Shown here in pieces: positions 2,707 through 30,673 of a DNA stretch of 38,696 nucleotides. The stretch is from NCBI GenBank assembly GCA_023265155.1, contig JAHFUL010000012.1, positions 1-38,696 on the forward strand, read 5' to 3'. The notes beneath the pieces are model-generated. The model was not told the DNA's origin. It did not search any database and saw nothing but the letters and a program-made list of their open reading frames with translations. The position numbers and the translations under genes were made by a program. The stretch is from Acidobacteriota bacterium. Its GTDB lineage: Bacteria > Acidobacteriota > Vicinamibacteria > Vicinamibacterales > CAVVIG01. Position 1 is the stretch's first letter. Each line of letters opens with the position of its first letter.

Positions 2707-4017
2707 TTAAGACTGCGTTGGGGAAGACGAGCGGGGCGACGTCGAAACTTCCGCAATTGTAACACGCGCCATGAGGAAGTCAATCGACTTATCCCGGCGC
2801 AACCCCGCGTAGACGCGTGAGAGTCCGCCTTCTTTTTCGAGCGCCGCCCGCACGGCGACCGGTGTTCGGCCGGTCCGCTCGGCATGGCGCGCGATCTCCT
2901 GCTCCACTTCTTCATCGGTCGGGTCGAAGTGCTCGCGGCGCGCGATTTCGTCGAGCACGATGGCGCTCGCCACCCCTTCGCGCGCCGGCTCGCGCTGACT
3001 CTCGCGGAACGCGTCCCAGTCGATGCCGGCCTGCCGCGGGTCGACGTGCTGATCCATCAGCCGCCGGGTGAAGTCCTCCAGACGCCGATCGATCTCGCGC
3101 TCGACGAGGGAGGCGGGTACTTCGAAGGGCACGCGCGCCGCGAGTTGCTTCATGAGCTCGCCCCGAACGTCGCGCTCGGCCGCGTGCCGCGCCTCGTGCG
3201 CCAAATCCTCACGCACCCTTGCCCGGAGCGCGCTGAGCGTCTCGAATTCCCCAAGGTCCTTCGCGAATTCATCGTCGAGGTCCGGCAGCACCCGCCGCTT
3301 GAGGTGCTTGACGTACGCCGTGTACGAGACATCGCTTCCGGCCAGCTCACTGATGGCGTAGTCCGGGGGATAGTGAATCGAGAACGTCTTCGTGGCGCCC
3401 GGTTCGAGGCCGAGCAGCTGCTCGTCGAAGCCGGGCGGGTTCGCCGTCGATCCGAGGTCGATGTTGACGTTCTGATGGCTGTCGCCCTCGCCTTTGGCCG
3501 TCCGGCGCTCCAGGTCGAGCGTCACCGTGTCGCCATCGATGACACCGCGTCCCTCGATCGGCTCGTGCCGGCCGGCCCGTTCGCGAAGCCTCCGGAGCGC
3601 CTCGTCAACCGCTGCCTCTTCCACCTGGGGCGACGGCCGCCGCAGCGAGATCGTCGCGTAGTCGCCGGGCTCGAACGCCGGCACCGTGTCGAACGATGCG
3701 GTGAAGGTCAGCGCCCGTCCTTCCTCGACCGTGACGTCCCGGATATCGGGGGTGTCCACCGGCTCGACCCCGCGCTCCCGCATCGCGTCGTCCACCGCGC
3801 GAGGAATGAGCTCGTGCGCGACGTCGTGCAGGATCTGATCCTTGAATCGCTGCTTGATCACGCGCGCCGGCGCCTTCCCGGGACGGAAACCGGGAATGCG
3901 GGCCTTGCGCGAATAATCCCGCGCGACACGGTCGATTTGCGCATCGACCACGTCGCTGGGGATCTCGACGCGAAGGTTCTTGCGGGTCTCGTTGACGTCG
4001 ATGAGATCGGCTTTCAT
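2707..4017 (-). CDS. tig: Trigger factor (ribosome-associated chaperone, PPIase)
   Basis: Trigger factor binds at the ribosome exit tunnel and helps fold nascent chains. The 436-residue product has the usual three-part layout: an N-terminal ribosome-binding domain with the near-invariant GFRPGKAP loop around residue 43-50, a central FKBP-type PPIase domain (about 155-240; GDTVTLDLE, ELAGSDVSYTAYVK), and a helical C-terminal chaperone domain (VPASLVEREIDRRL). The C-terminus ends in a Ser/Thr/Pro-rich tail. Its location upstream of clpP-clpX is the classical arrangement. The start at 4017 is supported by the conserved MKADLIDVNETRKNL N-terminus. Confidence 0.96.
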   Translation of the reverse strand: MKADLIDVNETRKNLRVEIPSDVVDAQIDRVARDYSRKARIPGFRPGKAPARVIKQRFKDQILHDVAHELIPRAVDDAMRERGVEPVDTPDIRDVTVEEGRALTFTASFDTVPAFEPGDYATISLRRPSPQVEEAAVDEALRRLRERAGRHEPIEGRGVIDGDTVTLDLERRTAKGEGDSHQNVNIDLGSTANPPGFDEQLLGLEPGATKTFSIHYPPDYAISELAGSDVSYTAYVKHLKRRVLPDLDDEFAKDLGEFETLSALRARVREDLAHEARHAAERDVRGELMKQLAARVPFEVPASLVEREIDRRLEDFTRRLMDQHVDPRQAGIDWDAFRESQREPAREGVASAIVLDEIARREHFDPTDEEVEQEIARHAERTGRTPVAVRAALEKEGGLSRVYAGLRRDKSIDFLMARVTIAEVSTSPRSSSPTQS

Positions 4018-4315: not shown

Positions 4316-4727
4316 TCATCGATCGCCCCGCCGTTGCGTCGCCGCTGGCGGGCGCAGCGGGTTGAAGCGACGATCGCGCACGTCGTCATAGTGCGCCTCG
4401 CCGCGCCGCGCATGTGCGGTCGCCAGCTCTTTCAGCGTCGCCGCGATCGCATCAGGATCATCGCGCACGCGTCGGTAGCAGCCGATCAGGTCGGGATTTC
4501 GAATCGACCAGGATGACCTCGTGGTCGTGGAGCCGGCCGGTCCGCTGCAAATCCAAGAAGACGGCGCCGCTGCCGAGGAGCGGTTCGATGTAACGGTTGA
4601 ACTGACGTGGGTAGAACCGCCGCAGGTGGGGGAGCAGCTGGCGCCTGCCACCAGCCCATTTGAGGAGTGGCTGCAGGCTGAGGCCCGCCCTCCTGTCGCT
4701 CATCCGACGTCCTGATTGATACACCAT
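4316..4727 (-). pseudogene. Broken Dam/D12-class adenine-N6 DNA methyltransferase remnant
   Basis: The reading frame from 4727 contains the D12-class SAM-binding start: PLLKWAGGRRQLLPHL, then YIEPLLGSGAVFLDLQ and HDHEVILVDS. Homology then jumps to another frame that continues NPDLIGCYRRVRDDPDAI and HYDDVRDRRFNP. One extra base in the run at 4497-4499 (TTT on plus, AAA on minus) explains the switch. Even with the frameshift repaired the protein would stop after about 136 residues, whereas family members are about 270, and the catalytic DPPY motif is absent. It is therefore a 3'-truncated, frameshifted remnant of a DNA methyltransferase, perhaps of a former restriction-modification or phage-derived module. 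Confidence 0.8.
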
Positions 4728-4762
4728 GAGAGACCGATAAGAGATGTGATGCCTTGCCGAAG

Positions 4763-4791
4763 TTGAAGTTGACTCTAATACATTGTAGAAA
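4763..4791 (+). promoter_or_regulatory. Candidate sigma70-type promoter for the polysaccharide locus
   Basis: TTGAAG (4763-4768) and TAGAAA (4786-4791) are separated by exactly 17 bp in the locally AT-richer stretch before the regulator gene. Each hexamer matches the consensus at 4 of 6 positions. The rest of the 4728-4931 intergenic region shows no other clear element. The assignment is weak. Confidence 0.25.
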
Positions 4792-4931
4792 CTGAACTTA
4801 GCAAGAGTGAATCGCTGGCGACCGTAGTCGCATGTGGTTCATGGCGACCTCGTCAGAGCGCCCCAAGCCGCGTCCGTACCCTGTAAGTGACGGGGCGAAG
4901 CTGTATCAACCAAACCCTTACCGGACTTTTC

Positions 4932-5930
4932 ATGGCGGCTCATAGTCAACCTGCTCGGCTTCTCACGACCCCACCGGCAGCCTCCGTGGAGCTCATTGGC
5001 CGCTCGGCAGCCATTGGTCGCATTCAGGAGCTCGTCCGGCGGGCCGCCGCGCTCGAGAGCGCCGTGCTGCTCGTAGCAGAACCTGGCATCGACGTCGAAT
5101 CGGTCGCTCGAGAGCTGCACATCCGAAGCCGCCCGCCGAGTGCGCCCTGGGTAGTGGCCGATTGCGCGAGCCTGGGGCCGCAACTCGACCTGAAGCTGTT
5201 CGGCGCTCCCGGTCCCGCGCAGAGCGATCTTGAATCGATCTCAGACGACAGCCTCATCGCCGGCGCTCGCGGCGGGACGTTGTTCCTCAGGGACGTGACA
5301 GAGCTGCCCTCGAGTCTTCAGACACGACTCGCGCGCATTGTTCGCGACGGCGAGGCACGGATTCAGGGTCAACCGGTCCTCACCGAGCTCCGCCTCGTCG
5401 CGGGCGCGTTGCCGTCCATCGACGCCGACGTTCACGAACATCGCTTCAGGCCGGACCTGTTCCGCCGTCTCGCCGCGACACGGATCGATCTGCCGCCGCT
5501 TCGCGATCGTCTGGCCGACGTGCCGGCTCTCGTCGAGCGGATCCTGCACGATGTGTGTGCGGCCAGTGGCTCGGCGCCCCGGGCTTTCACGCAGGCCGCG
5601 GTCGCGCTGCTGGCGGCGCTGGCGTGGCCCGGCAACCTCGCGGAGCTACGCGGTGCAATTGAGCGTGTGGTGGCACGAGCCCGGGAGGACGTGATTCAGG
5701 TCGAGCAGGTGCTCCCCGCCTTGCAACTCGAACGCGCGCTCGCCTCGTTTGTTCCGACCGGGAACCTGCGCGAGGCGCGTATGCGGTTCGAGCGGAGCTA
5801 CATCGCCGCGGTCCTTCAGCATCACGGGTGGCGGATGGCGGACGCCGCTCAGACGCTTGGAATCCAGCGTCCGAACCTGTACAGAAAAGCCCGTCAGCTC
5901 GGTATTTCCGTCGCGCGCGCCACCGAATAG
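4932..5930 (+). CDS. NtrC/Fis-type regulator with degenerate AAA+ ATPase domain
   Basis: The 332-residue protein has the architecture of a sigma54-dependent activator without a receiver domain: an AAA+ domain (about residues 20-260) and a C-terminal Fis-type helix-turn-helix (MADAAQTLGIQRPNLYRKAR). The ATPase core is damaged. Walker A is AEPGIDVES where GESGTGKE is expected, so the P-loop lysine is missing. The GAFTGA sigma54-contact loop is absent after LFG (LFGAPGPAQ), and Walker B is GGTLFLRDV instead of GGTLFLDEI. FRPDLFRRLAATRIDLPPLR, the downstream sensor/Arg-finger region, is retained. It probably binds DNA but cannot act as a normal ATP-driven sigma54 activator. It stands first in the polysaccharide operon, 16 bp before the Wza-like gene. 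ATG 4932 is preferred; GTG 4887 would add 15 residues. Confidence 0.85.
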   Translation: MAAHSQPARLLTTPPAASVELIGRSAAIGRIQELVRRAAALESAVLLVAEPGIDVESVARELHIRSRPPSAPWVVADCASLGPQLDLKLFGAPGPAQSDLESISDDSLIAGARGGTLFLRDVTELPSSLQTRLARIVRDGEARIQGQPVLTELRLVAGALPSIDADVHEHRFRPDLFRRLAATRIDLPPLRDRLADVPALVERILHDVCAASGSAPRAFTQAAVALLAALAWPGNLAELRGAIERVVARAREDVIQVEQVLPALQLERALASFVPTGNLREARMRFERSYIAAVLQHHGWRMADAAQTLGIQRPNLYRKARQLGISVARATE

Positions 5931-5946: not shown

Positions 5947-6810
5947 ATGAACCTCTCAGCCTTCACTCTCAGCCTCCTCCTGGTACCGCCGGCGACGACG
6001 GCAGCATTTCAAACGGCGACCACGACCGCCGCGCTTCCCCAGAGTCCGGTCGAATCGAGAGCTCCTTTGTCGGCCACGTACAGGATTGGCCTGGAGGATG
6101 AGATCAGGCTCGTCGTGGTTGGTGACGAGCAGCTGACCAACGTCTTCCGCGTGCAGTCGGACGGCGGTATCACGCTTCCTTATCTGAATACCGTCGCGGC
6201 TCAGGGACTCACCGCCATCGAGCTGCAGGAGCGCATTCGCGCGGCGCTGGCGAAGGACTTTTTCCGGGATCCTCTGGTGCGGGTCGAAGTCAGCAAATAT
6301 GGCAGCCAGTTCGTGATCGTTCAGGGTGAGGTGCGCCTGCCGCAACGACTCGCCATGACGGGACCGATGACACTGATGGAGGCCTTGTCGGCCGCCGGGT
6401 CGTGGACCCCCAACGCGAGCAGCGTGGTGACCGTCGCGAGGAAACCACCAGCCGCGAGCTCCGGCGTCCAGCAGGACTTCGAAATTTCCAGAATCAATCT
6501 GGATGATCTGAGTCACGGCGTGGCCAATACCAACATTTCCCTCGTCGGCGGCGACATCATTACGGTACCGAAGGCCGAGACGATCTTCGTTCAGGGAAAA
6601 GTCAAGAACGTCGGCGTGTACAACTGGGAGCCCGGCCTTACGGTGCAACAGGCGATCACGAAGGCCGGAGGCACCGACGACAAAGGCAGAAACACCGGCA
6701 TCAAGATCACGCGCCTCGTGGATGGCAAGAACAAGGAGATCGCAGTGAAGCAGCTCACGGACCTGGTGCAACCCAACGACATCATCGTCGTTCCTCAGCG
6801 TCGTTTCTGA
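5947..6810 (+). CDS. Wza-family polysaccharide export (OPX) protein
   Basis: This 287-residue protein begins with a signal-peptide-like stretch (NLSAFTLSLLLVPPATTAAF) and continues with a Poly_export domain starting at YRIGLEDEIRLVVVGDEQL (about residues 50-125). Two SLBB-type segments follow (FVIVQGEVRLPQRLAMTGPM; IFVQGKVKNVGVYNWEPGLT). It ends in the usual NDIIVVP. It should form or line the periplasmic/outer-membrane polysaccharide exit path. No lipobox cysteine and no long C-terminal amphipathic helix are visible, so it is shorter than E. coli Wza. A good ribosome-binding site (AGGATGTGGA) precedes ATG 5947. Its stop overlaps the start of the next gene (TGATG). Confidence 0.9.
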   Translation: MNLSAFTLSLLLVPPATTAAFQTATTTAALPQSPVESRAPLSATYRIGLEDEIRLVVVGDEQLTNVFRVQSDGGITLPYLNTVAAQGLTAIELQERIRAALAKDFFRDPLVRVEVSKYGSQFVIVQGEVRLPQRLAMTGPMTLMEALSAAGSWTPNASSVVTVARKPPAASSGVQQDFEISRINLDDLSHGVANTNISLVGGDIITVPKAETIFVQGKVKNVGVYNWEPGLTVQQAITKAGGTDDKGRNTGIKITRLVDGKNKEIAVKQLTDLVQPNDIIVVPQRRF

Positions 6811-8699
6811 TGTGCGGATTTGCCGGCCTCGTGCGATCGGACCATCCGATCGAGGGTTCGGCCGCTCTTGCCGGGCGGCTGGACGGGGCCCTTGCCCACC
6901 GCGGACCGGACGGCGGAGGCCGCTGGGTTTCTGCAGATGGCCGGGCGCTCCTCGTGCACCGGCGGCTCGCCATCATCGACCCGGGGCCTGACGGCGCCCA
7001 GCCGATGGCGACGCCCGACGGCAGCTATCAGCTCGTTTTCAATGGCGAGGTCTACAACTATCGCGAGCTGCGTCGCGACCTCGAATCGCGCGGCGAGCGC
7101 TTTGTCACCTCGAGCGATACCGAAGTGCTCCTGCGGCTCGTCGTGCGGGGCGGCCCGGTGTCGCTTTCGAGGGTTCGCGGCATGTTCGCGCTGGCGTGCT
7201 GGAGCGAGCGCGATCAATCGCTCCTGCTGGCGCGCGACCGCTTTGGCATCAAGCCGCTCTACGTCGCGGCCGCGTCGGACGAGATCGCTTTTTCGTCCGA
7301 GCTCTCCGCGTTGACCACGGCAGGTCTCGTCGATCGCCGGCCGTCGCCGGCGGGTGTCCTGGCATTTCTGTCGTGGGGCAGCGTTCCCTCACCGCTCACG
7401 TGGCTGCGCGGCGTGGAGTCGCTGGCGCCCGGCAGCTGGCGCCGTTGGGAGCGCGAGGGGCGGGATGAGCGCGGCGAGTTCGCCGACACGCGCGCTGCGT
7501 ACGGGTCGCACGCGCGGCCGGCATCGACGTCGGCGCTGCGCGAAGCGACCGGCGTCGCCGTGCGCGAGAGCGTGGCGGCGCATCTGGTGGCCGACGTGCC
7601 GGTCGGCGTGTTCCTCTCCGGCGGAATCGACTCCGGCGCGATCGTGTCGGCAGCGATCAGTGCAGGCGCCACGAATCTTCAGACGTTCACCGTCGGTTTC
7701 GAGGACAGCGGTGCGAACGGTTCAGAGATTCCGCACTCCCGAATCGTGGCGCGGGCATTTCGAACCGACCATCACGAGTTGACCGTCGACGGCTCCGATG
7801 TGGCCGCAGATTTCCCCCGGCTGCTCGCGCACCTCGATCAACCCTCGATCGATGGTGTCAACAGTTTCTATGTCGCCAGGGCGGTGGCACAGACCGGGAT
7901 CAAGGCGGTACTGTCCGGGGCCGGCGGCGACGAATTGTTCGGCGGCTATCCCTCGTTCACGCGGGTTCCGCGCGCCATGATGGCGAAGCGGATCGCGGGT
8001 CCGATGTGGCCGGGACTCTCGACGCTTGGGAACCTGATGGTCTCGGCCCGCCTCCGTCCCAGATGGCGCCACTTTGCGGGAGCCAACGGCAGTGTGGCCG
8101 AAGTCTACCGCGTGCAGCGGGGATTCCTGATGCCTGAGGAGATCGCTCGGCTGGCCGGCCCGGCGCTCGTCGACCGAGCGGTGATGCGCGAAGCCACGGA
8201 AGCACTGAGTGCTGCGGAAGAACGACTGCTGGCACCGATTGGCAGCGAGTCGGTCACGGCCTCGATTGCCCGGCTCGAGACCCGGCTGTATCTCGGTTCG
8301 CAGCTCTTGCGGGACATGGACGTCATGGCCATGGCGCACGGTCTCGAGGTCCGCGTGCCGTTCGTCGATCACGAGCTTCTCGCCACCATCTGGCCCGCAC
8401 TCGGGTCCCGTCCGGAGCTGCAGCGACACAAGCGTCTCCTCTTCGAAACCCTCGCGTCCCCCTTGCCACAGTCCATCGTCAGTCGTCCAAAGCACGGGTT
8501 CACGCTCCCGTTCGAGAAGTGGCTCGGCGGCGCGCTTGCCCCGATTGTCCGGGACGGAATGCACCAGCTGGGCGCCGACGGCTGGCTCGCGTCAGGCGTG
8601 CCGGACCGGGTCTGGCGCAGCTGGCAGGACGGCACGTCGCACTGGACCCGGCCCTGGGGTCTCGGCGTCCTGGGACACTTTCTGAAGGGGGCTCGATAG
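6810..8699 (+). CDS. AsnB-type glutamine-hydrolysing amidotransferase (asparagine synthase family)
   Basis: The 629-residue protein starts MCGFAGLV, placing the glutaminase nucleophile cysteine at position 2. The class II glutamine amidotransferase domain follows (HRGPDGGG, FNGEVYNYRELR, LLARDRFGIKPLY). The synthetase domain has the PP-loop SGGIDSGAIVSAA and the conserved LSGAGGDELFGGYP, LRDMDVMAMAHGLEVRVPFVDHEL and RPKHGFTLPFEKWL. In free-standing contexts it would make asparagine. Inside a glycan locus, AsnB paralogues are often linked to amidation of uronic acids (WbpS-like), which I infer as the more likely role here. It overlaps the upstream gene (TGATG) and is followed after one base by a small ORF. 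Confidence 0.93.
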   Translation: MCGFAGLVRSDHPIEGSAALAGRLDGALAHRGPDGGGRWVSADGRALLVHRRLAIIDPGPDGAQPMATPDGSYQLVFNGEVYNYRELRRDLESRGERFVTSSDTEVLLRLVVRGGPVSLSRVRGMFALACWSERDQSLLLARDRFGIKPLYVAAASDEIAFSSELSALTTAGLVDRRPSPAGVLAFLSWGSVPSPLTWLRGVESLAPGSWRRWEREGRDERGEFADTRAAYGSHARPASTSALREATGVAVRESVAAHLVADVPVGVFLSGGIDSGAIVSAAISAGATNLQTFTVGFEDSGANGSEIPHSRIVARAFRTDHHELTVDGSDVAADFPRLLAHLDQPSIDGVNSFYVARAVAQTGIKAVLSGAGGDELFGGYPSFTRVPRAMMAKRIAGPMWPGLSTLGNLMVSARLRPRWRHFAGANGSVAEVYRVQRGFLMPEEIARLAGPALVDRAVMREATEALSAAEERLLAPIGSESVTASIARLETRLYLGSQLLRDMDVMAMAHGLEVRVPFVDHELLATIWPALGSRPELQRHKRLLFETLASPLPQSIVSRPKHGFTLPFEKWLGGALAPIVRDGMHQLGADGWLASGVPDRVWRSWQDGTSHWTRPWGLGVLGHFLKGAR

Positions 8700-8955: not shown

Positions 8956-9797
8956 GCCAGGTGTCTCCGTATCCTGTCGCCCTCTCGACCCGCCGTCTCG
9001 CGGCGCAGAGCGGCTGGAGTCTCGGCCGCCTCACCGAGATCTGGGAGTACAGAGAGCTGCTGTATTTTCTGATCTGGCGCGACATCAAGGTCCGCTACAA
9101 GCAGACGGTGCTCGGTGCGGGCTGGGCGATCATCCAGCCGGTCCTCACGATGGTGGTCTTCACCATTTTCTTTGGCCGGCTCGCCGGCATGCCCTCTGAC
9201 GGCATTCCCTATCCCGTGTTCTCGATGGCAGCGCTCGTGCCCTGGACGTACTTTGCCACGGCGCTGTCGAGCGGCAGCCAATCGGTCGTCGGCAGCCAGC
9301 ACGTGATCTCCAAGGTGTATTTCCCGCGACTCATCTTTCCTCTGGTCTCCGTGCTCGGGCCGCTCGTTGATTTTGGCATTGCGTTTCTCGTGCTGATTGC
9401 CCTCATGTTCTGGTACGGCATCCTTCCGGGCGCTGCCGTCCTCTGGCTTCCTGCGCTGCTGCTTCTGTCGATCCTCACGGCTGCCGCGGGCAGCGTCTGG
9501 TTGTCCGCACTGAACGTCCAGTACCGCGACGTTCGCTACGTCGTGCCGTTTGTCATCCAGTTGTGGATGTTCGCCTCGCCGGTGATCTATCCGGCCTCCC
9601 ACGTTCCCGAGCGATGGCGGACGCTCTTCTTTCTCAATCCGATGGCGGGCGTCATCGAAGGCTTCCGCTCGGCCCTCGTTGGCGGCTCGTCCCCAGGGTG
9701 GATCACGCTCGTGTCGGCTGCCGTCGTCATCGTGTCGCTCGTCGCTGGCGCGGCGTACTTTCACCGGCTCGAAGGCACGTTCGCCGATCGCATCTGA
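8952..9797 (+). CDS. ABC-2 type polysaccharide exporter permease (Wzm/TagG-like)
   Basis: The 281-residue membrane protein has the ABC2_membrane signature LIWRDIKVRYKQTVLGAGWA followed by six predicted hydrophobic segments (IIQPVLTMVVFTIFF, ALVPWTYFATAL, the long LIFPLVSVLGPLVDFGIAFLVLIALMF, LWLPALLLLSILTAAAGSV, FVIQLWMFASPVIYP, SAAVVIVSLVAGAAYF). The C-terminal FLNPMAGVIEGFRSAL is typical of O-antigen and teichoic-acid exporters. It should pair with the next gene to move undecaprenyl-linked glycan across the inner membrane. ATG 8952 overlaps the stop of the preceding ORF, and its own stop overlaps the ATPase start (TGATG). Confidence 0.93.
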   Translation: MSQVSPYPVALSTRRLAAQSGWSLGRLTEIWEYRELLYFLIWRDIKVRYKQTVLGAGWAIIQPVLTMVVFTIFFGRLAGMPSDGIPYPVFSMAALVPWTYFATALSSGSQSVVGSQHVISKVYFPRLIFPLVSVLGPLVDFGIAFLVLIALMFWYGILPGAAVLWLPALLLLSILTAAAGSVWLSALNVQYRDVRYVVPFVIQLWMFASPVIYPASHVPERWRTLFFLNPMAGVIEGFRSALVGGSSPGWITLVSAAVVIVSLVAGAAYFHRLEGTFADRI

Positions 9798-11107
9798 TGG
9801 CCGGCGCCCCAGTCATTCGCGCGGAGCATCTCGGCAAACGCTATCGTCTCGGCGCGCGCGGGCGGCAGTCGTCCACGGCCGGAGATGCCATAGCCGCGGC
9901 TGCCAGCCGGTTGCTCGGGCGTCTCCGCATCGGTCGCTCCACCGAGGTTTCGGACGACATCCTCTGGGCCCTCGACGATCTGACGTTCGAAGTTCAACCC
10001 GGTGAAACGATCGGCATCATCGGCCGCAACGGAGCCGGGAAGTCCACACTGTTGAAGATCCTTTCCCGAATCATGGAGCCCACAACCGGGTTCGCGGAGA
10101 TCACCGGCCGCGTCGGCTCCCTCCTCGAGGTGGGCACCGGATTTCATGCTGACCTGACGGGGCGGGAGAACACCTATCTGAACGGCGCGATTCTCGGGAT
10201 GAAGCGCGCCGAGATCGAGCGCAAATTCGACGAGATCGTCGCATTTGCGGAAGTGGACCGCTTCATCGACACGCCCGTGAAGTTCTATTCGAGCGGGATG
10301 TACATGCGTCTCGCGTTTGCGGTGGCCGCCCATCTCGAAACCGAGATCCTCGTCATCGATGAAGTCCTTGCCGTTGGCGACATCCAGTTCCAGAGGAAAT
10401 GCCTCGGGAAGATGAACGACATCGCCAGGCACGGGCGTACGGTGTTGTTCATCAGCCACAACATGGAAGCCATTCAGCGGCTGTGTTCAAGAGGCATGCT
10501 CCTCGATCGAGGACGCCTCATGGCCAGCGGCTCGATTGGCGAGGTCGTGACAAAGTATCGCGCCACTGAGCGCAGGCTCGTCGATATCGGCCGCTTCAAT
10601 GCCCGCGGCCGCAGCGGTACCGGATGGGCGCGCATCAGAGACCTGCGGCTGGTCGACATTGCCGGCAGGCCGGTGCCTGGCCGGCCGGCGGAAGAAGATC
10701 TGACGTTCGTAGTCGATCTCGAGCTCCACAACGCCTCGATGGTCGGCGCCAGTCTTCGCGGACTGATTCTCGAGCTCGTGATCCACTCGGACCAGGGACA
10801 GCCTCTCGTCTCGCTCATGAGCATCGACGACGAGGGCGTTGAGCTGCCATCGGCGGCGGGCTGCCGCATCACCGCCACGCTCTCGGGTCCGACGTTTCTG
10901 CCGGGACGTTACCGGCTGAACGCATTCCTGGGAATTCCGTACCGGGAACACGTCGACGAAGTCCCTGATGCGCTCGAGTTCGAGGTGCTGTCGCCCGTGC
11001 ATCCGTGGCGGCCGTACGAGCTGCACAGCTCGCGACAGATCGTCTGTCGCAAAGCCAGCTGGACGTGCACCGTTGACGCGCCGTTTGCGGGAGCCTCAGT
11101 CCCATGA
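9797..11107 (+). CDS. ABC transporter ATPase with Wzt-type C-terminal domain
   Basis: The 436-residue protein is the nucleotide-binding partner of the Wzm-like permease. Walker A is GIIGRNGAGKSTLLK, the signature is YSSGMYMRLAFA as in Wzt/TagH proteins, Walker B is ILVIDEVLAVGD, and the H-loop is FISHNME. After about residue 255 a further 180 residues form a beta-rich extension (LRLVDIAGRPV, LILELVIHSDQGQPLVSL, LPGRYRLNAFLG) resembling the Wzt carbohydrate-binding domain, which reads the non-reducing end of the finished O-polysaccharide. Its presence implies that export is gated by a terminal sugar modification. A methyltransferase follows immediately (ATGA overlap). Confidence 0.93.
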   Translation: MAGAPVIRAEHLGKRYRLGARGRQSSTAGDAIAAAASRLLGRLRIGRSTEVSDDILWALDDLTFEVQPGETIGIIGRNGAGKSTLLKILSRIMEPTTGFAEITGRVGSLLEVGTGFHADLTGRENTYLNGAILGMKRAEIERKFDEIVAFAEVDRFIDTPVKFYSSGMYMRLAFAVAAHLETEILVIDEVLAVGDIQFQRKCLGKMNDIARHGRTVLFISHNMEAIQRLCSRGMLLDRGRLMASGSIGEVVTKYRATERRLVDIGRFNARGRSGTGWARIRDLRLVDIAGRPVPGRPAEEDLTFVVDLELHNASMVGASLRGLILELVIHSDQGQPLVSLMSIDDEGVELPSAAGCRITATLSGPTFLPGRYRLNAFLGIPYREHVDEVPDALEFEVLSPVHPWRPYELHSSRQIVCRKASWTCTVDAPFAGASVP

Positions 11108-11919
11108 GCGCTCCTCAGAAGGCCAAAGCGCTCGCGAAGCGGATTCTTGGCCGCCATCCGATGGTCACGGTGCCGCCGGCCGTGGCGAACACGTATGTCG
11201 AGGCCGGCAACCAATGGTACCGGCCGACGCTCGGCGGCGCGCTGACGCTGGCGCCGCGTCTCGGAGGCGGCCGTGTCGTGCGGGAGGCGCTGGCGATCCT
11301 CGATCGTCTGGGCGAGGACGTCTACCTCACGTTCGTGCGCAATTTCTATCTCGCCGGTCTCGCGAAGTACGGCGACGGTTGGCAGTATGCGGACATCAAT
11401 ACGGCGCTCGTCGGGCTCGCGGAGGTTTTACAACCAGCCGCGTACCTGGAAATCGGCGTGCGCCGCGGTCGGAGCCTGGCGATGGTGGCCTCGAAGGCGC
11501 CCGCCTGCCACATCGTGGCGTGCGACCTGTTCATTGAGAACTACGCCAACATGGAGAATCCCGGCCCCGACTTCGTGCGCAGTGAGGTTCAACGCTTCGG
11601 GTTCTCCGGAACCCTCGAGTTCATCGTCGGCGATTCGACCAGAGTACTGTCGCCATTCTTCGACGAGCGCCCCGGCCTTTTCTTCGACATCATTACCGTC
11701 GACGGCGATCACACAGCCGCGGGCGCTCACGCGGATCTGATCAACGTCATGCCGCGGCTCAAGATTGGCGGCGCCCTCGTCTTCGACGATGTGTCGAACC
11801 CGTCTCATCCGGAGCTCGGCCAGGTGTGGCGCGACACCGTCGTCGCGCGATCCGAGCTCTCGACGTTCACTTTCGACGAGATTGGATTCGGTGTTGGAGT
11901 GGCGATTCGCCATGCGTGA
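11104..11919 (+). CDS. Class I SAM-dependent methyltransferase (Methyltransf_24-like)
   Basis: This 271-residue protein contains a Rossmann methyltransferase core: YLEIGVRRGRSLAMVA (motif I), HIVACDLF, FIVGDSTRVL and FDIITVDGDHTAAGAHADL. GGALVFDDV gives the acidic residues typical of Methyltransf_24/O-methyltransferase-like folds. The first 90 residues are less conserved. Directly downstream of the Wzt-like ATPase, it may add a capping or tailoring methyl group to the glycan; this role is inferred from position. It overlaps the ATPase (ATGA) and the following epimerase by 8 bp. Confidence 0.8.
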   Translation: MSAPQKAKALAKRILGRHPMVTVPPAVANTYVEAGNQWYRPTLGGALTLAPRLGGGRVVREALAILDRLGEDVYLTFVRNFYLAGLAKYGDGWQYADINTALVGLAEVLQPAAYLEIGVRRGRSLAMVASKAPACHIVACDLFIENYANMENPGPDFVRSEVQRFGFSGTLEFIVGDSTRVLSPFFDERPGLFFDIITVDGDHTAAGAHADLINVMPRLKIGGALVFDDVSNPSHPELGQVWRDTVVARSELSTFTFDEIGFGVGVAIRHA

Positions 11920-12841
11920 CAAGAACCAGAAAGCCGTTGTCACCGGCGGGAGCGGCTTCATCGGTCAGGCGCTCGTCGCGCATCTGCGGTTGGGCGGCTG
12001 GCAGGTCCTCGCCGTGGATCGCCAGCCGTTCCCCGACGCGGCGCAGCCGGCGATGGCCGCCGACGTCGCCCAGCCGGGTGCGCTTGCGCGCGTGGTGGAC
12101 GAGCGCACGACCATCTTCCACCTTGCAGCCTCGGCTGATGTCGCCGCCTCGGTGGCGAGTCCGCGCCGCGACTTCGACAACACCTTCCGGGGCGTCTTCG
12201 AGGTCCTCGAGGCGGCGCGGGACGTGAACTGCAAGGTCATTTTTCCCTCGACGGCGTCGATTTTCGACGCGAGCCATCAACTGCCGCTTCCCGAGCGCGC
12301 GTTCCCGCGGCCGTCCTCGCCCTATGCCGCGGGGAAGCTTGGCGGCGAGGCGTACTGTCACGCGTACCACCGGAGCTATGGCCTGGACGTTCGCATCGCG
12401 CGGCTGTTCAGCGTCTACGGCCCGGGCATGTACCGATTCGCGATCCACGATCTCATCCGAAAAATCCAGGCGAACCCGGAAGAAATCGAGCTGCTCGGTG
12501 ACGGCACGCAAGTGCGCGACTATCTGTACATTGATGATGCGGTGCGCGGTCTCGAGATGATTGCGACGCAGGCAGATCCTGGGGAGGACTACAACCTTGC
12601 GTCGGGTGTTCCCGTGCGCCTCTGCGACCTGGCGCGCACGATTGCCGAGTTGATGGGCCGCCCGAACATCCGCATCGTGCCGACCGGCCGCTCGTTCCCC
12701 GGGGATACGCCCCGCTGGTTTGCGGACATCTCGAAGATCCGCCGGCTCGGCTTCGAGCCCAGAGTGGATTTTCGCGCCGGGCTGCAGCGAACGATCGCGG
12801 CGCTCGTTCCAACATCCGGCGAAGTGGTGGCCACGCGGTGA
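11912..12841 (+). CDS. NAD-dependent nucleotide-sugar epimerase/dehydratase (extended SDR)
   Basis: The 309-residue protein is an extended short-chain dehydrogenase. The NAD-binding TGGSGFIGQALV lies at the N-terminus, FHLAASADVAASV follows, the active-site serine/threonine is in IFPSTASIF and the YxxxK pair in SPYAAGK. Later ARLFSVYGPGM and VRDYLYIDDAVRGLEM are typical of UDP-glucose 4-epimerase-type enzymes. The exact substrate (UDP-Glc, UDP-GlcNAc or a uronate) cannot be read from sequence alone. ATG 11912 lies inside the previous gene's end. Its stop overlaps the next start. Confidence 0.88.
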   Translation: MRDKNQKAVVTGGSGFIGQALVAHLRLGGWQVLAVDRQPFPDAAQPAMAADVAQPGALARVVDERTTIFHLAASADVAASVASPRRDFDNTFRGVFEVLEAARDVNCKVIFPSTASIFDASHQLPLPERAFPRPSSPYAAGKLGGEAYCHAYHRSYGLDVRIARLFSVYGPGMYRFAIHDLIRKIQANPEEIELLGDGTQVRDYLYIDDAVRGLEMIATQADPGEDYNLASGVPVRLCDLARTIAELMGRPNIRIVPTGRSFPGDTPRWFADISKIRRLGFEPRVDFRAGLQRTIAALVPTSGEVVATR

Positions 12842-14016
12842 TGGAGCCCCGCGACGAGGTGGCGTACGTGCTGCCAGACAAACTGGGCGGCGTCTTCAAC
12901 TACGTGGGCAATCTGCTTGCGCACCGGCGCGACGATCGCCTCTCGGCTGCCGCGATTCGCACCGACAACGCGTCGGACGCTGACGCCAGATGCGAGGAGC
13001 CGCTTCGGGCCGATCGCGAGGTCCGCTTTTCCTACGCGCTGCCTCCGGAGAACATCTACTCGGTTCTGCGCCGTCTCGCGCGCGTGTTTTCCGGGCGGCC
13101 TGGCGTCATCGTCGCCAATGACTGGATCGAGCTGGCGCTCACGGCGATCCACGACACGGGGCGGGCCGTCGTGGCGATTACACATGGAGATTTCGACTAC
13201 TACTACGACCTCGCCCTGCGGCATCGCGATACGATCGATGCCTACGTGACGTACAGCGAGCGGATGTTCCAGCGGTTGCGTGAACTGTTGCCAGAGCGTC
13301 GCGACACGATCTTCTTCCTGCCGTACGGAGTGGTGATCCCCGTCGTGGTCCGGCACCCGGCCGACGGCCCGTTGAGGCTTCTCTATGTCGGAAGGCTGAC
13401 GCGCGCAAAAGGCGTGTTCGACTTGCCGGCGATCGACGCCCGGCTTCGCGAGAGGGGCGTTGACGTCGCGTGGACGATCCAAGGCACGGGACCGCACGAA
13501 GCGGCGCTGAGAGACGCGTGGCGCGATGCGCACGACATCCGCTGGACCGGCATGCAGCCGATGGCGGACGTGCTGCGGTTGTACGCGTCGCACGATGTGC
13601 TCGTGATGCCCAGCCGCAACGAAGGCCTTCCGGTCGCACTGCTCGAGGCGGGGGCCGCTGGAGTCGTGCCGGTCGCGAGCAATCTCGCCAGCGGGATTCC
13701 CGACGTCGTACTACCCGGGCTGACCGGCTACCGTCCCGAACCGGGCGACATCGACGGATTTGCGGAAGCGATCGCGTCGCTCGCGGCTGACCGCGACGAG
13801 CTCGAACGGATGAGCCGCCGCGTCCGCGAGCGCGTGGCGGCAACGTACGACGCGTCGATGTGCACGGCGGCGTACGAGCGGCTGTTTGCCGACTGGCGCC
13901 AATGGAAACGGGTGCGGCCGGCTCGCGTGCATCTGTCGTACGGGAGCCGTCTCGACCAGCCGTGGCTGCCCAATCCGCTGGTGCGCGCGCTTCGATCGAC
14001 ATGGATGAAGTCGTGA
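12841..14016 (+). CDS. GT4-family glycosyltransferase
   Basis: A 391-residue GT-B fold enzyme. The C-terminal donor-binding domain begins at LRLLYVGRLTRAKGVFDL and includes IQGTGPHEAALRDA, HDVLVMPSRNEGLPVALLEA (an E-x7-E motif) and GLTGYRPEPGDI. The N-terminal half starts with VAYVLPDKLGGVFNYVGNLL, the glycine-rich acceptor loop. It should transfer a sugar from a nucleotide donor to the lipid-linked glycan on the cytoplasmic side of the membrane. A GTG at 12838 is an alternative start; ATG 12841 shares its A with the preceding TGA. Confidence 0.88.
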   Translation: MEPRDEVAYVLPDKLGGVFNYVGNLLAHRRDDRLSAAAIRTDNASDADARCEEPLRADREVRFSYALPPENIYSVLRRLARVFSGRPGVIVANDWIELALTAIHDTGRAVVAITHGDFDYYYDLALRHRDTIDAYVTYSERMFQRLRELLPERRDTIFFLPYGVVIPVVVRHPADGPLRLLYVGRLTRAKGVFDLPAIDARLRERGVDVAWTIQGTGPHEAALRDAWRDAHDIRWTGMQPMADVLRLYASHDVLVMPSRNEGLPVALLEAGAAGVVPVASNLASGIPDVVLPGLTGYRPEPGDIDGFAEAIASLAADRDELERMSRRVRERVAATYDASMCTAAYERLFADWRQWKRVRPARVHLSYGSRLDQPWLPNPLVRALRSTWMKS

Positions 14017-14960
14017 GCACGGCAGACCCCAAGTCCAGCGGCGCGGTGCCCCTGGTCAGCGTGCTGATGACGGCCTACAACCGCGAGGATTACATCGGCG
14101 AGGCGATCGAGAGCGTCCTTGCCCAGACGTTCGCGAGTTTCGAGCTCATCGTCGTCGACGACCGGTCGACGGATCGCACGCGGGAGGTGGTCCAGCACTA
14201 CCTCGGCGATCCGCGCGTGCGTCTCGTCTGCAACGATCGCAATCTTGGCGACTACCCGAATCGCAATCACGCCTCGACGTTCGCGCGGGGCGAGCTCATG
14301 AAGTACCACGATTCCGACGACCTGATGTATCCGCACTGCCTCGAGATCATGGTCAGCGCGCTTCAGGCGCATCCCTCGGCAGCGTTTGCATTGTCGGGCA
14401 ATGCCGGGTGGCCAGGCGGACCGTCGCCGATGCTCCTCACGCCGCGGATGTGCTATCAGCGCGAGTTTCTCGGCAGCGGCGCGGTGTTCCGCCCGGGGCC
14501 GGCAGGCGCGCTGTTCCGGACCGGCGCGTTCGTCGAACTGGGTCGGTTCCCTCTCGGTGGGATCCATTCCGACACGCTCTTCTGGATCGCTGCGTGCGCC
14601 AGGCGATCGGTCGTGCTGACGCAGGGCGATCTCCTCTATTACCGCGTGCACGCCGGCCAGGAGCTCCAACGACTCGACGTCTCGTACGAGTTGGCGCGGC
14701 TCGAGGGGATCATGTTTCGCGCGATCGACGCCCCCGAATGCCCGCTCGACGCCGCGGAGCGTGAGCAGGCGAAGCGGAACCTTGTGGCAGGGTTCATCAG
14801 GCGCACGATCCGCGACGTGCGAAACGTTCAACCGCGGCTCGCACTGTTCCGGCTGAAACACAGCGGCTTGAGTCTTGTGGAATGGCTCCGCTACACGCGT
14901 CGCCCGCGGCGCCAGACCGCGGCCGGGACGCCGCCACCGCTCGCCAAGGAACAAGGGTGA
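14001..14960 (+). CDS. GT2-family glycosyltransferase
   Basis: The 319-residue protein is a GT-A glycosyltransferase and the only GT2 in the locus. It shows PLVSVLMTAYNREDYIGEAI, ELIVVDDRSTDRTREVV, NRNLGDYPNRNHA and the metal-binding HDSDDLMYPHC. An inverting enzyme using nucleotide sugar is expected. ATG 14001 is listed; a GTG at 14013 gives the 4-bp GTGA overlap with the previous stop that is usual in this operon and may be the real start, shortening the protein by four residues. The C-terminal tail (RRPRRQTAAG) is basic. Confidence 0.88.
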   Translation: MDEVVSTADPKSSGAVPLVSVLMTAYNREDYIGEAIESVLAQTFASFELIVVDDRSTDRTREVVQHYLGDPRVRLVCNDRNLGDYPNRNHASTFARGELMKYHDSDDLMYPHCLEIMVSALQAHPSAAFALSGNAGWPGGPSPMLLTPRMCYQREFLGSGAVFRPGPAGALFRTGAFVELGRFPLGGIHSDTLFWIAACARRSVVLTQGDLLYYRVHAGQELQRLDVSYELARLEGIMFRAIDAPECPLDAAEREQAKRNLVAGFIRRTIRDVRNVQPRLALFRLKHSGLSLVEWLRYTRRPRRQTAAGTPPPLAKEQG

Positions 14961-16309
14961 AGGTCGCACACGCCCTCGGCTGGTACTACCCCGAGAGTCT
15001 TGGGGGGACCGAGATTTACGTGTCCGGGCTGTGCCGCCGCCTGCGGCACGCCGGGCATGACGTGTACGTCGCGGCTCCCGAAGCCGGTCGCGAGGGCACC
15101 GCGGCATATTGCCACGAAGGGACTCCGGTTTTTCGGTATCCGATCCCCGCCGCACCGTCCCGTGATGAAGCTCAGGGGCGGAAGGCCGCTCGCGGCGCCG
15201 AGCTGTTCCATCGCTGGCTCGCGGAGCTTCGTCCCGACGTCCTGCACGTGCACAGCCTTGTCACCGGTCTTGGATTGCACGAACTGAGGGCGGCCAGGCG
15301 CCTCGGGATCCAGATCGTGCTCACGCATCATCTTCCCTCGCTTGGCTACATCTGCCGCCGCGGCACGCTGCTGGAGCGTGACGCGCGGCCGTGCGACGGC
15401 CTGGCTTCGCCGGGACGTTGCGCCGCCTGCATGCTTATCTCGCGCGGCCTTCCCACTTTGGCGGCCGAGACCCTGGCGCTTCTGCCGCCGCGGGTCAGCA
15501 CGGCACTCGGGGTGATGCCGGGGGCGCTCGGGACCGGCTTCGGCATGACGGCATCAATTGCCGAGGACGCGCGCCGCGAACGCGAGCTCTCGACACTCGT
15601 CGACTGGCAGGTCGTGCTGAACGAGTCGGCACGCCGGATCATCGCCGCCAATGGCCTGCCGACCGATCGCATCGTCCTCAATCGCCTCGGTATCGATCAC
15701 CAGACAGTTGTCAGGAAGCCGCCGATCGAGGAGGCGCCGACCCGACGGCCGATCCGCATCGGCTATCTCGGGCGGATCGATCGCACCAAGGGCGTGCGCG
15801 AACTGGTCCTCGCTGCTGCGAAGGTGCCGCGCGAGATCCGATTCACGCTTGAAATCAGAGGACCGGTGCGAGTGGAAGCCGAGCGTCGCCTGCATGAAGA
15901 ATTGCAGCGAATCGCCCTCGGCGATTCGCGGGTGATATTCAGCCCGGAAGTGACGTCTGCCGAAGTGCCCTCGGTCCTTGCCGGGTTCGACGTTCTTTGC
16001 TGCCCATCGACCTGGTTCGAAAATGGCCCGACCGTGGCGCTGGAAGCCATGAGCGTCGGAACACCGCTCATTGCGAGCCGCCTAGGCAATCTCGCCGAGA
16101 TCGTCGAAGACGATGTGAACGGGCGGCTCGTGCCGCCTGGCGACGTCGACGCGCTTTCAGCGGCGCTCGGACAGGCCGCGGACGATCCGGCTGGAACGAT
16201 CGACCGGTGGCGTGCCTGTCTCGGCGCGGTGCGGTCGCTCGATGAAATCGCCGACGACTATCTGGCGCTCTACGCGCGCCTCGATGTCAGACAGGCGCAG
16301 GCTTCCTAG
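14957..16309 (+). CDS. GT4-family glycosyltransferase
   Basis: A 450-residue GT-B enzyme starting at GTG 14957 (GTGA overlap, AAGGAACAAGG upstream). The N-terminal acceptor domain has GWYYPESLGGTEIYVSGL and VLHVHSLVTGLGLHEL. A cysteine-bearing insert (YICRRGTLLERDARPCDG, PGRCAACM) lies near residues 130-160 and is found in several GT4 enzymes. The C-terminal domain has IGYLGRIDRTKGVREL and the E-x7-E box in WFENGPTVALEAM, ending in EIVEDDVNGRLVPPGD. Sugar specificity cannot be inferred. Confidence 0.9.
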   Translation: MKVAHALGWYYPESLGGTEIYVSGLCRRLRHAGHDVYVAAPEAGREGTAAYCHEGTPVFRYPIPAAPSRDEAQGRKAARGAELFHRWLAELRPDVLHVHSLVTGLGLHELRAARRLGIQIVLTHHLPSLGYICRRGTLLERDARPCDGLASPGRCAACMLISRGLPTLAAETLALLPPRVSTALGVMPGALGTGFGMTASIAEDARRERELSTLVDWQVVLNESARRIIAANGLPTDRIVLNRLGIDHQTVVRKPPIEEAPTRRPIRIGYLGRIDRTKGVRELVLAAAKVPREIRFTLEIRGPVRVEAERRLHEELQRIALGDSRVIFSPEVTSAEVPSVLAGFDVLCCPSTWFENGPTVALEAMSVGTPLIASRLGNLAEIVEDDVNGRLVPPGDVDALSAALGQAADDPAGTIDRWRACLGAVRSLDEIADDYLALYARLDVRQAQAS

Positions 16310-16315
16310 ATCCAC

Positions 16316-17554
16316 ATGGCCCGGATCTGCGTGATGACTGCCGGCCATCTGGCCACCTGCCCGCGAATGACCAAAGCTGCCGACGCGCTTTCAGCAGCCG
16401 GTCATGACGTTCGCGTCGTCAGCACCCGACACACCCCGTGGGCCGTGGAGGCAGACGACGAGATACGCGCGACCCGGTCATGGCCATGGAGCGTCGTCGA
16501 CTATCGGAAGGACGCGGCGCGACTGCTGTACGTGAAGTCCGGCCTGAGGGGTCGCTCGGCCCTGGCCATGGCGAGGCAGCTGGGCGCGTCGCAGGTGCCC
16601 TTCGCTGTGGGCGTCCACGCGTATGCTCGGGTCCATCCGGAACTGGTGAGCGCGGCGCTCGAGGAGCCGGCCGATCTTTTCTATGGTGGGACCACCGGGG
16701 CGATCGCGGCAGCCGCCGAGGCGGCCTGCCGCGCCGGCGCGCCCTATGGTCTCGACCTCGAGGACTTTCACGCCGAGGAACAGGAAGGTCCAGACGGTCC
16801 GTTGATGAACGCCCTGGGCGATCGCATCGTGGCGCGCGTGGCCCCGGACGCGGCCTTCGTGACGACGTCGAGCGGCGCGAACGCCGCGGAGTACCGCCGC
16901 CGGTACCGCGTCCACGCGGTGACGATCAACAACACGTTTCCGCTTCCGCTGCACACGCCGGCGATCGCCCGCCGCGACGGGTCGCCACTGAGGGCGTACT
17001 GGTTCAGTCAGACGATCGGATCGGGACGCGGTCTCGAGGGGTTCATCAGGGGGGCCGGCGCCGCGCACGTCCCCGTCGAGCTTCATCTCCGCGGCCGCTC
17101 GTCCGCAGGATATGTCGAGACGCTCAAACAGCTGGCCGCGTCGCTGGCACCCCAACTCTCGATCGTCACGTCCGAACCGGCGTCGCCGGACAGGATGGTC
17201 GCGCTTTGTGAAGATCACGACTTTGGCCTGGCGATCGAGGAAGGCCACATGCTGAGCCGACAGTTCAGTCTGAGCAACAAGGCCCTGACGTATATCCTCG
17301 GGGGCCTTGCGGTTGTCCTGACCGACACCGAGGGTCAGCGTGAACTGGGACAGGGCGTCGGGGAGGGCGCTCTCATCTATCGCGAAGGGGACTACGAGAC
17401 GCTCGCACAGGGTCTCCGCCGCTGGTATCAGGAACCGGAGCGTTTGCTCGCCGCGCGTCGCGCAGCATGGGCCGCAGCGGCCGGGCGCTGGCACTGGGAG
17501 CATGCTTCCCAAAGCGGCGCGCTCGTGGCGGCCGTTGGACGCGTCCTCTCATGA
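16316..17554 (+). CDS. Divergent GT-B (GT4-like) glycosyltransferase
   Basis: This 412-residue protein begins RICVMTAGHLATCPRMTKAA, a GT-B style N-terminus, and keeps LHLRGRSSAGYVETLKQLA and DFGLAIEEGHMLSRQFSLSN in the donor domain. The usual E-x7-E pair is replaced by a SLSNKALTYILGGLAVVLTD segment like that in the SxPNK/Y subgroup. HDVRVVSTRHTPWAV and LFYGGTTGAIAAAAEA are in the acceptor half. It is separated from the previous gene by 6 bp. It is less certain than its neighbours but probably a glycosyltransferase. Confidence 0.75.
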   Translation: MARICVMTAGHLATCPRMTKAADALSAAGHDVRVVSTRHTPWAVEADDEIRATRSWPWSVVDYRKDAARLLYVKSGLRGRSALAMARQLGASQVPFAVGVHAYARVHPELVSAALEEPADLFYGGTTGAIAAAAEAACRAGAPYGLDLEDFHAEEQEGPDGPLMNALGDRIVARVAPDAAFVTTSSGANAAEYRRRYRVHAVTINNTFPLPLHTPAIARRDGSPLRAYWFSQTIGSGRGLEGFIRGAGAAHVPVELHLRGRSSAGYVETLKQLAASLAPQLSIVTSEPASPDRMVALCEDHDFGLAIEEGHMLSRQFSLSNKALTYILGGLAVVLTDTEGQRELGQGVGEGALIYREGDYETLAQGLRRWYQEPERLLAARRAAWAAAAGRWHWEHASQSGALVAAVGRVLS

Positions 17555-18606
17555 ACGGTTCGGCCCTTCGCGTGCTCCTGGTCATGGATCCGTTCATCGC
17601 CGTTCCACCGAAACACTACGGCGGCATCGAGCGGGTCATCGCCGACCTTGGCAGTGGATTACTTCAGCGTGGTCACGAGGTCACCCTGTGGGCGGCTCCG
17701 GGATCCAGAATCGACACGGCCACCGTCGTTCCGTTTGGAACCGAAGGTGAGTGGACCCGATGGAGCAACCTGCGGAACACCGCGACCGTAACCACCAGGC
17801 TCTATCGTGGCCGCTCGCAGTTCGACGTGGTTCACAACTTCGGCCGGCTCGCCTACCTCTCGGGTGTGCTGTCGTGGAACCTGCCGAAGGTGCAGACGTA
17901 CATGCGCACGGTCAACCCCGGCAACATGCGCAAGGTGCAGGCGCTTGGCGCCAGGCGGCTGTGTTTCACCGCGGTAAGCGCGGCGATCAGCCGGACCGGC
18001 GAGCCCGGCGGCGGCGATTGGCGCGTCATTTACAACTGCGCTTCGCCCGATATGTACCAGTTTCAGGCCGCGGTCGATCCGGCCACGGCTCCGCTCGTCT
18101 TTCTCGGCCGGCTGGATCGCTGCAAGGGCGCGCATACCGCGATCACCATCGCCGAGCGGCTGAATCGCGAGCTCATCATTGCCGGAAACGTGTCGACGCT
18201 GCCTCATGAACGCGAATACTTCGAACGGGACGTGCAGCCGCGCATCGACGGTGGGCGTGTTCGTTACATCGGTCCCGTCGACGATCGACAGAAGAACACG
18301 CTCCTCGGCGGCGCGGCCGCTCTCCTGACCCCCATCGAATTCGAGGAGCCTTTCCCTGTCGTTCTGCCGGAGGCGATGCTGTGCGGCACGCCGGTCATCG
18401 GATTCCGGCGCGGCGGACTGCCGGAGGGCATAGACGATGGGCGGACCGGCTTTGTGTGCGACACAGTCGACGAAATGATGACGGCCGTCGGCCGGCTGGG
18501 TGAGATCAAGCGTCACGCGTGCCGGGCGGAGGCGGAGCGTCGATTCAGCACCGAGACAATCGTGGGCGACTACGAGCGGCTCTATCTGGATTTGTGCCGG
18601 AGCTGA
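17551..18606 (+). CDS. GT4-family glycosyltransferase
   Basis: The 351-residue GT-B protein starts VLLVMDPFIAVPPKHYGGIE, with a GGIERV-type acceptor loop, then FDVVHNFGRLAYLSGVLS. The donor domain has PLVFLGRLDRCKGAHTAI, LIIAGNVSTLPHEREYF and IEFEEPFPVVLPEAMLCGTP, which contains E-x7-E. This arrangement (GGxE start, short second domain, LTPIEFEEPFP) matches the common GT4 subgroup that acts in exopolysaccharide assembly. ATGA overlap links it to the upstream gene. Its stop lies 13 bp inside the next gene if that gene uses GTG 18594. Confidence 0.9.
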   Translation: MNGSALRVLLVMDPFIAVPPKHYGGIERVIADLGSGLLQRGHEVTLWAAPGSRIDTATVVPFGTEGEWTRWSNLRNTATVTTRLYRGRSQFDVVHNFGRLAYLSGVLSWNLPKVQTYMRTVNPGNMRKVQALGARRLCFTAVSAAISRTGEPGGGDWRVIYNCASPDMYQFQAAVDPATAPLVFLGRLDRCKGAHTAITIAERLNRELIIAGNVSTLPHEREYFERDVQPRIDGGRVRYIGPVDDRQKNTLLGGAAALLTPIEFEEPFPVVLPEAMLCGTPVIGFRRGGLPEGIDDGRTGFVCDTVDEMMTAVGRLGEIKRHACRAEAERRFSTETIVGDYERLYLDLCRS

Positions 18607-20020: not shown

Positions 20021-20023
20021 CAT

Positions 20024-20162
20024 GCCCGTGGTGAAAGTCATATCGGGCTGTTGCAGTCCGAGGCGGAAGGAGAAACAGGGGTCAGACCCCTTTGTTTTCG
20101 GCTGTGCAAAGGGGTCTGACCCCTTGTTCGAGCGACAACTCACTTGCGCCGCGGACTGCTAG
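20024..20162 (+). repeat. REP/MITE-like palindromic element, copy A
   Basis: A 139-bp element fills the gap between two operon genes. It contains an 18-bp perfect stem, 20077-20094 with 20107-20124, around a 12-nt loop; each arm is itself a near-palindrome (GGGGTCAGACCCC). GCAGTCCG (20053-20060) and CGGACTGC (20152-20159) form an outer inverted pair. An inverted second copy lies at 32508-32648; the first 36 bp (20024-20059) are identical in both. No transposase is present in the window, so a non-autonomous, RAYT-mobilised or MITE-like nature is inferred. Confidence 0.85.
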
Positions 20163-20164
20163 AC

Positions 20165-21475: not shown

Positions 21476-21479
21476 TTCG

Positions 21480-26550: not shown

Positions 26551-26551
26551 C

Positions 26552-29451: not shown

Positions 29452-30417
<966 letters not shown>

Positions 30418-30444
30418 CTCGCTTCATGGCCTTGTCGCCAGCTC

Positions 30445-30667: not shown

Positions 30668-30673
30668 CCGTTG

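Follow-up and report, generated by a model that had tools for sequence, protein, structure and literature searches.

A probably NtrX-derived pseudo-ATPase regulator at the head of a Wza-type polysaccharide export operon in Vicinamibacterales

The window, by which we mean the whole stretch of 38,696 nucleotides analysed here, is part of a Vicinamibacterales MAG (2.53 Mb, 66.5% complete) and contains a glycan cluster whose genes and features are listed in Table 1. The gene at its head encodes a regulator of the enhancer-binding protein (EBP) type, and its open reading frame is uninterrupted from the ATG at 4932 to the TAG at 5930. A gene for a Wza-like export protein starts 16 bp after it, which agrees with the description of the regulator as head of a Wza/glycan operon in an earlier, sequence-only reading of this DNA. 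An in-frame GTG at 4887 was considered as an alternative start and is disfavoured, because a conserved leader element overlaps the GTG and the distance between element and start differs among orthologues. The trigger factor/ClpP/ClpX flank upstream of the regulator is conserved in the majority of orthologous loci for which enough DNA is available. A Wzc-like chain-length/kinase protein (GNVR + AAA_31) is encoded on the minus strand (35483-37726), at the far end of the glycan cluster.

Table 1. Features of the window and carriers of the leader element.
Feature	Position	Strand	Basis
Trigger factor, then ClpP, ClpX	2707..4017	-	flank upstream of regulator
Possible remote half-site TCCTGATTGATAC	4710..4722	+	motif shared with five orthologues
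Decayed equivalent of the orthologues' operator/-35 region, AAGTTGAAGTTGACTC	4760..4775	+	alignment with orthologues
Conserved leader element TGTAAGTGACGGGGCGAAGCTGTATC, one copy in this genome	4882..4907	+	orthologue comparison
TGTAAGTGACGGGGCGRAGCTGTATC carriers	window 4882-4907; L052-L063, L065, L066, L068, L069, L071, L079, L080, L082, L085, L181, L188
Pseudo-ATPase EBP-type regulator, 332 aa, AAA+ core/lid/Fis-type HTH	4932..5930	+	ORF, Pfam, AlphaFold2, tree
Walker A remnant AEPGIDVE, lysine gone, residues 49-56	5076..5099	+	translation, motif alignment
GAFTGA (L1) loop remnant; family consensus DLE.(I/V)..DS	5205..5258	+	alignment
Walker B remnant FLRD, residues 118-121	5283..5294	+	translation, motif alignment
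AAA+ lid (AAA_lid_14), sensor II Arg to Ala237	5502..5726	+	Pfam, motif alignment
Fis-type HTH_8 LGIQRPNLYRKARQLGI, near invariant across the family	5787..5894	+	Pfam, alignment
Wza-like polysaccharide export protein (Poly_export + SLBB)	5947..6810	+	Pfam
Asparagine-synthase-like amidotransferase, next operon gene	6810..8699	+	Pfam
ABC transporter ATPase, Wzt C-terminal-like domain	9563..11107	+	Pfam
Methyltransferase, epimerase, carbamoyltransferase and many glycosyltransferase genes of the glycan cluster	11104..31909	+

The window protein consists of a Sigma54_activat domain (PF00158, 76.3 bits), an AAA_lid_14 and an HTH_8 domain; Pfam finds no N-terminal receiver domain, and the AAA+ part begins at residue 21. 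Side by side with the 13 intact EBPs of the same genome, which also encodes rpoN, it scores 78 bits against PF00158 versus 211-251 bits. The AlphaFold2 model (mean pLDDT 85.5) shows an intact AAA+/lid/HTH fold. The protein therefore has two features of bacterial EBPs (bEBPs), the PF00158-family AAA+ fold and the Fis-type HTH, and is missing the Walker A lysine, the Walker B DE pair, the sensor II arginine and the GAFTGA loop. Where the canonical Walker A motif is GExGxGKE the window protein has AEPGIDVE, with valine for the P-loop lysine and aspartate for a glycine, as is characteristic of its subgroup; APGPAQSDLESISDDSL stands in place of the GAFTGA loop, and Walker B is FLRD instead of FLDE. 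The sensor II motif GNxREL has become GNLAEL, without its arginine, and both arginine-finger positions (FRPDLFRR) are retained; neither point was on the list of the sequence-only reading. That reading had recognised the lost P-loop lysine, the lost GAFTGA loop and the retained fold and Fis-type HTH, all of which we find as well. Its claim that the order of the Walker B acidic pair had changed stands as far as the motif is altered, but the change is described more accurately as a lost catalytic aspartate, in a motif that is variable among orthologues (RD, QD, HN, HH and, in L031, even DE).

A scan of named genomes and a search across 60 related ones showed orthologues with 44-67% identity in the majority of genomes belonging to the same GTDB-style family, and more distant ones in at least 10 families of Vicinamibacterales. 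In a sample of 297 Acidobacteriota genomes, scores of about 260 bits and above are confined to this order. Motif counts and tree are based on an alignment of 48 relatives, all from Vicinamibacterales (Acidobacteriota), with 18 intact EBPs. The Walker lysine is missing in 47 of the 48 relatives, the DE pair likewise in 47, and GAFTGA in all 48. All three losses are combined in 46 of the 48 but in none of the 18 intact EBPs, every one of which has the Walker lysine and GAFTGA, so that chance does not account for the pattern. The two arginine-finger positions are retained in 42 and 46 of the 48 relatives, respectively. In 20 of 48 an arginine takes the place of the Walker lysine (GxGTGR). One member, L189 (G035:C123), has an intact-looking P-loop (GPDGSGKG) together with missing Walker B and GAFTGA motifs, possibly an early stage of decay. 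Such P-loops might be taken to mean that a nucleotide is still used, i.e. that residual ATP or another nucleotide acts as an allosteric signal in an altered pocket without hydrolysis, and for NtrC of Rhodobacter capsulatus ATP binding alone is reported to suffice (PMC10274813). We regard this as highly unlikely, as the P-loop of the window's subgroup is destroyed at both the lysine and the glycine and sensor II is lost.

In the IQ-TREE phylogeny the 48 relatives form a single clade apart from the 18 intact EBPs (support 100/100). The clade stays single with the motif columns left out (SH-aLRT 100) and hence is not created by the shared losses. In a tree of the HTH, NtrX-like proteins of the same order adjoin the clade (SH-aLRT 98), in agreement with NtrX being the top match by NCBIfam, PDB sequence and Foldseek (Brucella NtrX 5m7n/o/p). 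The L1 loop of Brucella NtrX is shortened too, like that of the window protein. Unlike NtrX, the window protein is without receiver, Walker A, Walker B and sensor II, sits at a Wza operon, and reaches a full-length score of 181.5 bits against an NCBIfam cut-off of 600. For six orthologue pairs, dN/dS, estimated by a simple counting method with dS partly saturated, takes values of 0.14-0.28 across the AAA+ part and 0.05-0.17 across the HTH, the most constrained part of the protein; these values indicate that the dead AAA+ domain is being maintained. As judged from sequence, the regulator is probably an NtrX-derived protein under selection that has permanently lost ATP binding and hydrolysis as well as sigma54 contact. 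The opposite view, a decaying gene nearing loss, could draw on the decayed operator of the window (see below) and on the frame of G010, which is broken in the assembly. It is extremely improbable: the break in G010 falls at ambiguous bases, frames are open in the other relatives, dN/dS is well below 1, and the gene and its synteny are retained throughout the order.

Of 42 members, 37 have a Wza-type gene on the same strand no more than 2.6 kb downstream, compared with 0 of 16 intact EBPs (the 13 of this genome and 3 others), counted by hand from tables for members with enough downstream DNA; five of the 42 have no Wza gene nearby. The sequence-only reading had proposed to look for homologues with the same lost motifs near Wza genes, and this is the arrangement encountered. 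The Wza gene directly follows the regulator in the window's subgroup. In other members one gene intervenes, a BBP2_2 barrel in L111, the sole case run through Pfam.

The proteins at these loci have three architectures: pseudo-receiver, pseudo-AAA+ and HTH; pseudo-AAA+ and HTH, as in the window; and, in two genomes, HTH alone. The pseudo-receiver of the long members (L041, L042, L044, L045, L047, L048, L050, L081-L083, L085, L188-L190) has neither the acidic pair nor the conserved lysine; the acceptor aspartate is kept in some cases. Their Walker A motif is mostly GTGR, and both signalling modules, receiver and AAA+, look dead within one protein. The HTH-only proteins (L111/L186 in G384, L112/L187 in G360) comprise about 82 aa, with an HTH_8 score of 44 bits for L112. 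Their genes stand between the trigger-factor flank and the barrel, Wza and amidotransferase genes, with no AAA+ remnant nearby in the G384 or G360 loci. No AAA-containing clade member is evident elsewhere in the two genomes, where the best AAA+ matches do not exceed 230 bits and all five that were inspected are intact GAFTGA-type EBPs. Two short frames at contig ends (L174, L175) were left out of the count, which gives two complete HTH-only loci. In the HTH tree, a weakly supported placement over 58 columns puts the HTH-only proteins among the short class, so their AAA+ domain may have been lost from a short-class ancestor.

Among the orthologues, nearly all AAA+HTH operons and both HTH-only operons have upstream of them a 16-bp palindrome, GTRTC-N6-GAYAC, that shares bases with a sigma70 -35 box. 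It occurs in exact form at 24 loci, namely upstream of the regulator at 22 AAA+HTH loci and upstream of the gene preceding the HTH in the two HTH-only operons (-797, -788). In all, 674 kb of sequence contain just 34 matches (0.05 per kb). The operator and promoter tests were devised after viewing the upstream sequences. Operator matrix scores are 22-33, with one of 15.5, and the background maximum is 24. Copies of the palindrome that contain TTGACA number 0-2 per genome in 12 genomes. Further genomic copies (L207, L208, L213, L216) are probably due to chance; their target genes are not coherent. The right half of the palindrome lies on the TTGACA -35 box, and about 17 bp further on there are -10 boxes resembling CATATT or GACAAT. 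Conservation extends to the two T of the -35 box that the symmetry of the palindrome does not require, which means that both -35 box and operator are maintained. A sigma70-like promoter is found at 15 of 44 loci versus 1.9% of random windows. Sigma54-like (-24/-12) promoters, in contrast, are absent upstream of the regulator in the window and occur at 5 of 44 loci versus 15% of random windows, i.e. without excess. The long pseudo-receiver class has weak one-mismatch operators further upstream. Another protein could also bind the palindrome.

These data bear on the proposal of the sequence-only reading that the protein is possibly an anti-activator mixing into active hexamers. The dead subunit would then poison hexamers of an active EBP with its arginine fingers while having no ATP site. 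The retained arginine-finger positions (42 and 46 of 48) keep the idea formally alive, and the AAA+ fold is intact in a genome with rpoN and 13 intact EBPs. The proposal nevertheless fares badly and is very improbable: the operons have no sigma54-type promoter signal upstream but a sigma70 promoter that bears a specific palindrome, conservation is highest in the HTH, the HTH-only relatives have no AAA+ domain for mixing, and none of the intact EBPs of this genome is located at a Wza locus.

A second GTRTC half-site is present 20-23 bp upstream of the palindrome, mostly at exactly 22 bp, in 26 of 27 AAA-containing loci (22 with exact and 5 with one-mismatch palindromes; chance expectation 1.3%) and in neither of the two HTH-only loci, a pattern noticed after the fact. 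L176 and L177, AAA-containing members of the family that also includes the HTH-only ones, have the second half-site. The pattern points to side-by-side binding of two dimers as a reason why the AAA+ scaffold is retained.

Taken together with the genomic context, the protein is very likely an ATP- and sigma54-independent autoregulator of the Wza operon. The suggestion of the sequence-only reading that an EBP scaffold was turned into an ATP-independent DNA-binding regulator is borne out, as far as sequences allow, by the clade-wide dead motifs, the strong constraint on the HTH and the two relatives without AAA+. The selected, NtrX-derived factor would act at the sigma70 level on the exopolysaccharide export operon that it heads. 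Its dimers would bind GTRTC-N6-GAYAC through the Fis-type HTH, in the relatives on the operon's -35 box, and also the weaker tandem site about 22 bp, or two helical turns, upstream. The AAA+ domain, though inactive, would provide a scaffold on which dimers assemble with each other, and would perhaps sense a ligand or partner. A repressor had already been named as possible, which fits the position of the operator across a near-consensus -35 box; the sign itself we infer. Repression is the more probable sign, because the operator covers a near-consensus TTGACA box with a 17-bp spacer, and activation is possible but rather unlikely. The explanation as a whole, a dead-ATPase autoregulator of NtrX descent with repression favoured and the AAA+ domain as scaffold, we consider reasonably probable.

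The closest functional parallel is found in VpsR of Vibrio cholerae (7v2b), which has a receiver domain, binds c-di-GMP and belongs to a lineage different from Vicinamibacterales; we know of no VpsR relative with a missing AAA+ domain. According to PMC10274813, VpsR is likewise an EBP-like exopolysaccharide regulator without GAFTGA, and acts at sigma70 promoters without ATP. The features of this class, an EBP scaffold without GAFTGA, an exopolysaccharide locus and a sigma70-like promoter, are all found here, the promoter being that of the orthologues since the window's own is decayed. By analogy, the regulator would work like a VpsR-class, sigma70-level EBP derivative; it fails the defining features of bEBPs and NtrX that were tested. 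The same protein and operator could also work by class II activation, the regulator bringing sigma70 RNA polymerase to the exopolysaccharide promoter, perhaps on binding a small ligand such as c-di-GMP. VpsR is a close structural match (rank 10), the main operator is at a class II activator position with the second site upstream in phase, and overlap with the -35 box fits class II activation too. We nevertheless regard a VpsR-like activator as unlikely: a near-consensus -35 box with a 17-bp spacer in most loci is unusual for an activator-dependent promoter, and HTH-only forms without a ligand domain speak against a ligand-driven activator.

Other EBPs without GAFTGA at sigma70 promoters are the NtrC proteins of Rhodobacter capsulatus and Caulobacter (PMC10274813). 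Both keep receiver phosphorylation, whereas the window protein does not; Rhodobacter NtrC needs ATP binding and Caulobacter NtrC its Walker A/B residues, which are lost in the window protein. The PEP-CTERM-box response regulator PrsR (TIGR02915), also of EBP type and linked to exopolysaccharides, keeps receiver and sigma54 domains, and the window protein scores 150 bits against its cut-off of 502.6. Within its incomplete coverage, our literature search found no description of the present pseudo-ATPase regulator family, nor of an order-wide joint loss of phosphorylation, ATPase and sigma54 functions with passage to an HTH-only form. GAFTGA-independent EBPs are thus known singly (VpsR, Rhodobacter and Caulobacter NtrC), and most keep some ATP machinery or a receiver. 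The present case is an order-wide family in which phosphorylation, ATPase and sigma54 contact appear to be lost while purifying selection still acts on the fold. Such a family can serve as a natural experiment on the role of a pseudo-ATPase domain within a transcription factor. It also offers a defined candidate operator and promoter for testing the control of exopolysaccharide export in abundant, hardly studied soil Acidobacteria.

The three architectures may reflect a stepwise reduction of an NtrX-type activator at one locus type: receiver and ATPase die, the receiver is lost, and finally the AAA+ domain is lost to leave a Fis-like protein, with the operator kept and its two tandem sites reduced to one when the scaffold goes. 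We propose this sequence tentatively, with slightly less than even confidence. Fis itself is thought to descend from an NtrC-type regulator (Morett & Bork 1998, as cited in PMC7166090). It is a small free-standing Fis-type HTH like the relatives in G384 and G360, which the window protein is not. The HTH-only form differs from Fis in being tied to one operon, in another phylum, with pseudo-AAA+ relatives still extant. If true, the scheme would add a second path, one that can be traced, leading from a sigma54 activator to a Fis-like regulator, and it would reveal why a dead AAA+ domain is retained.

The window's own promoter contains no recognisable palindrome, though its HTH is unchanged; the upstream region retains only the leader element and the remote TCCTGATTGATAC. 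Since the main operator is decayed here, the mechanism was read from the orthologues, and regulation in the window's strain may differ from theirs. The half-site TCCTGATTGATAC is also located 158-161 bp upstream of the main operator in L053, L056, L058 and L063, and 74 bp upstream in L065. These spacings are near whole helical turns, and DNA looping is possible.

Of the 44 clade loci, 24 have the near-invariant TGTAAGTGACGGGGCGRAGCTGTATC in their leader; among these are operon starts at a large distance upstream of long-class regulators. A genome contains one or two copies, almost all of them at operons of the pseudo-ATPase regulator family. The leader element matched no family in an Rfam search, and RNA folding gave no common structure (z = -1.6 versus shuffled flanks). 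The ops element is the site used by RfaH-type NusG paralogues; the leader element resembles it in position and loosely in sequence, and might be an ops-like site for such proteins. Genes for UpxY-family NusG paralogues lie on the same contig as long-class regulators, at a distance of about 2-6 kb upstream (L243 in G014:C26, L239 in G016:C42, G026:C133, G015:C44). Two of the four were checked with NCBIfam and score 111-112 bits as UpxY-family antiterminators (NF033644, cut-off 100). No NusG paralogue was found in the window's incomplete genome, and we treat the link between UpxY/NusG and the leader element as a lead only. Upstream of L052, L054, L057, L060 and L061, direct repeats of GTC plus A/T-rich sequence with a period of about 10 bp, e.g. 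GTCTATTAAGTCATATTAAGTCGCTAATTGTCG, cover the -10 box and the early leader.
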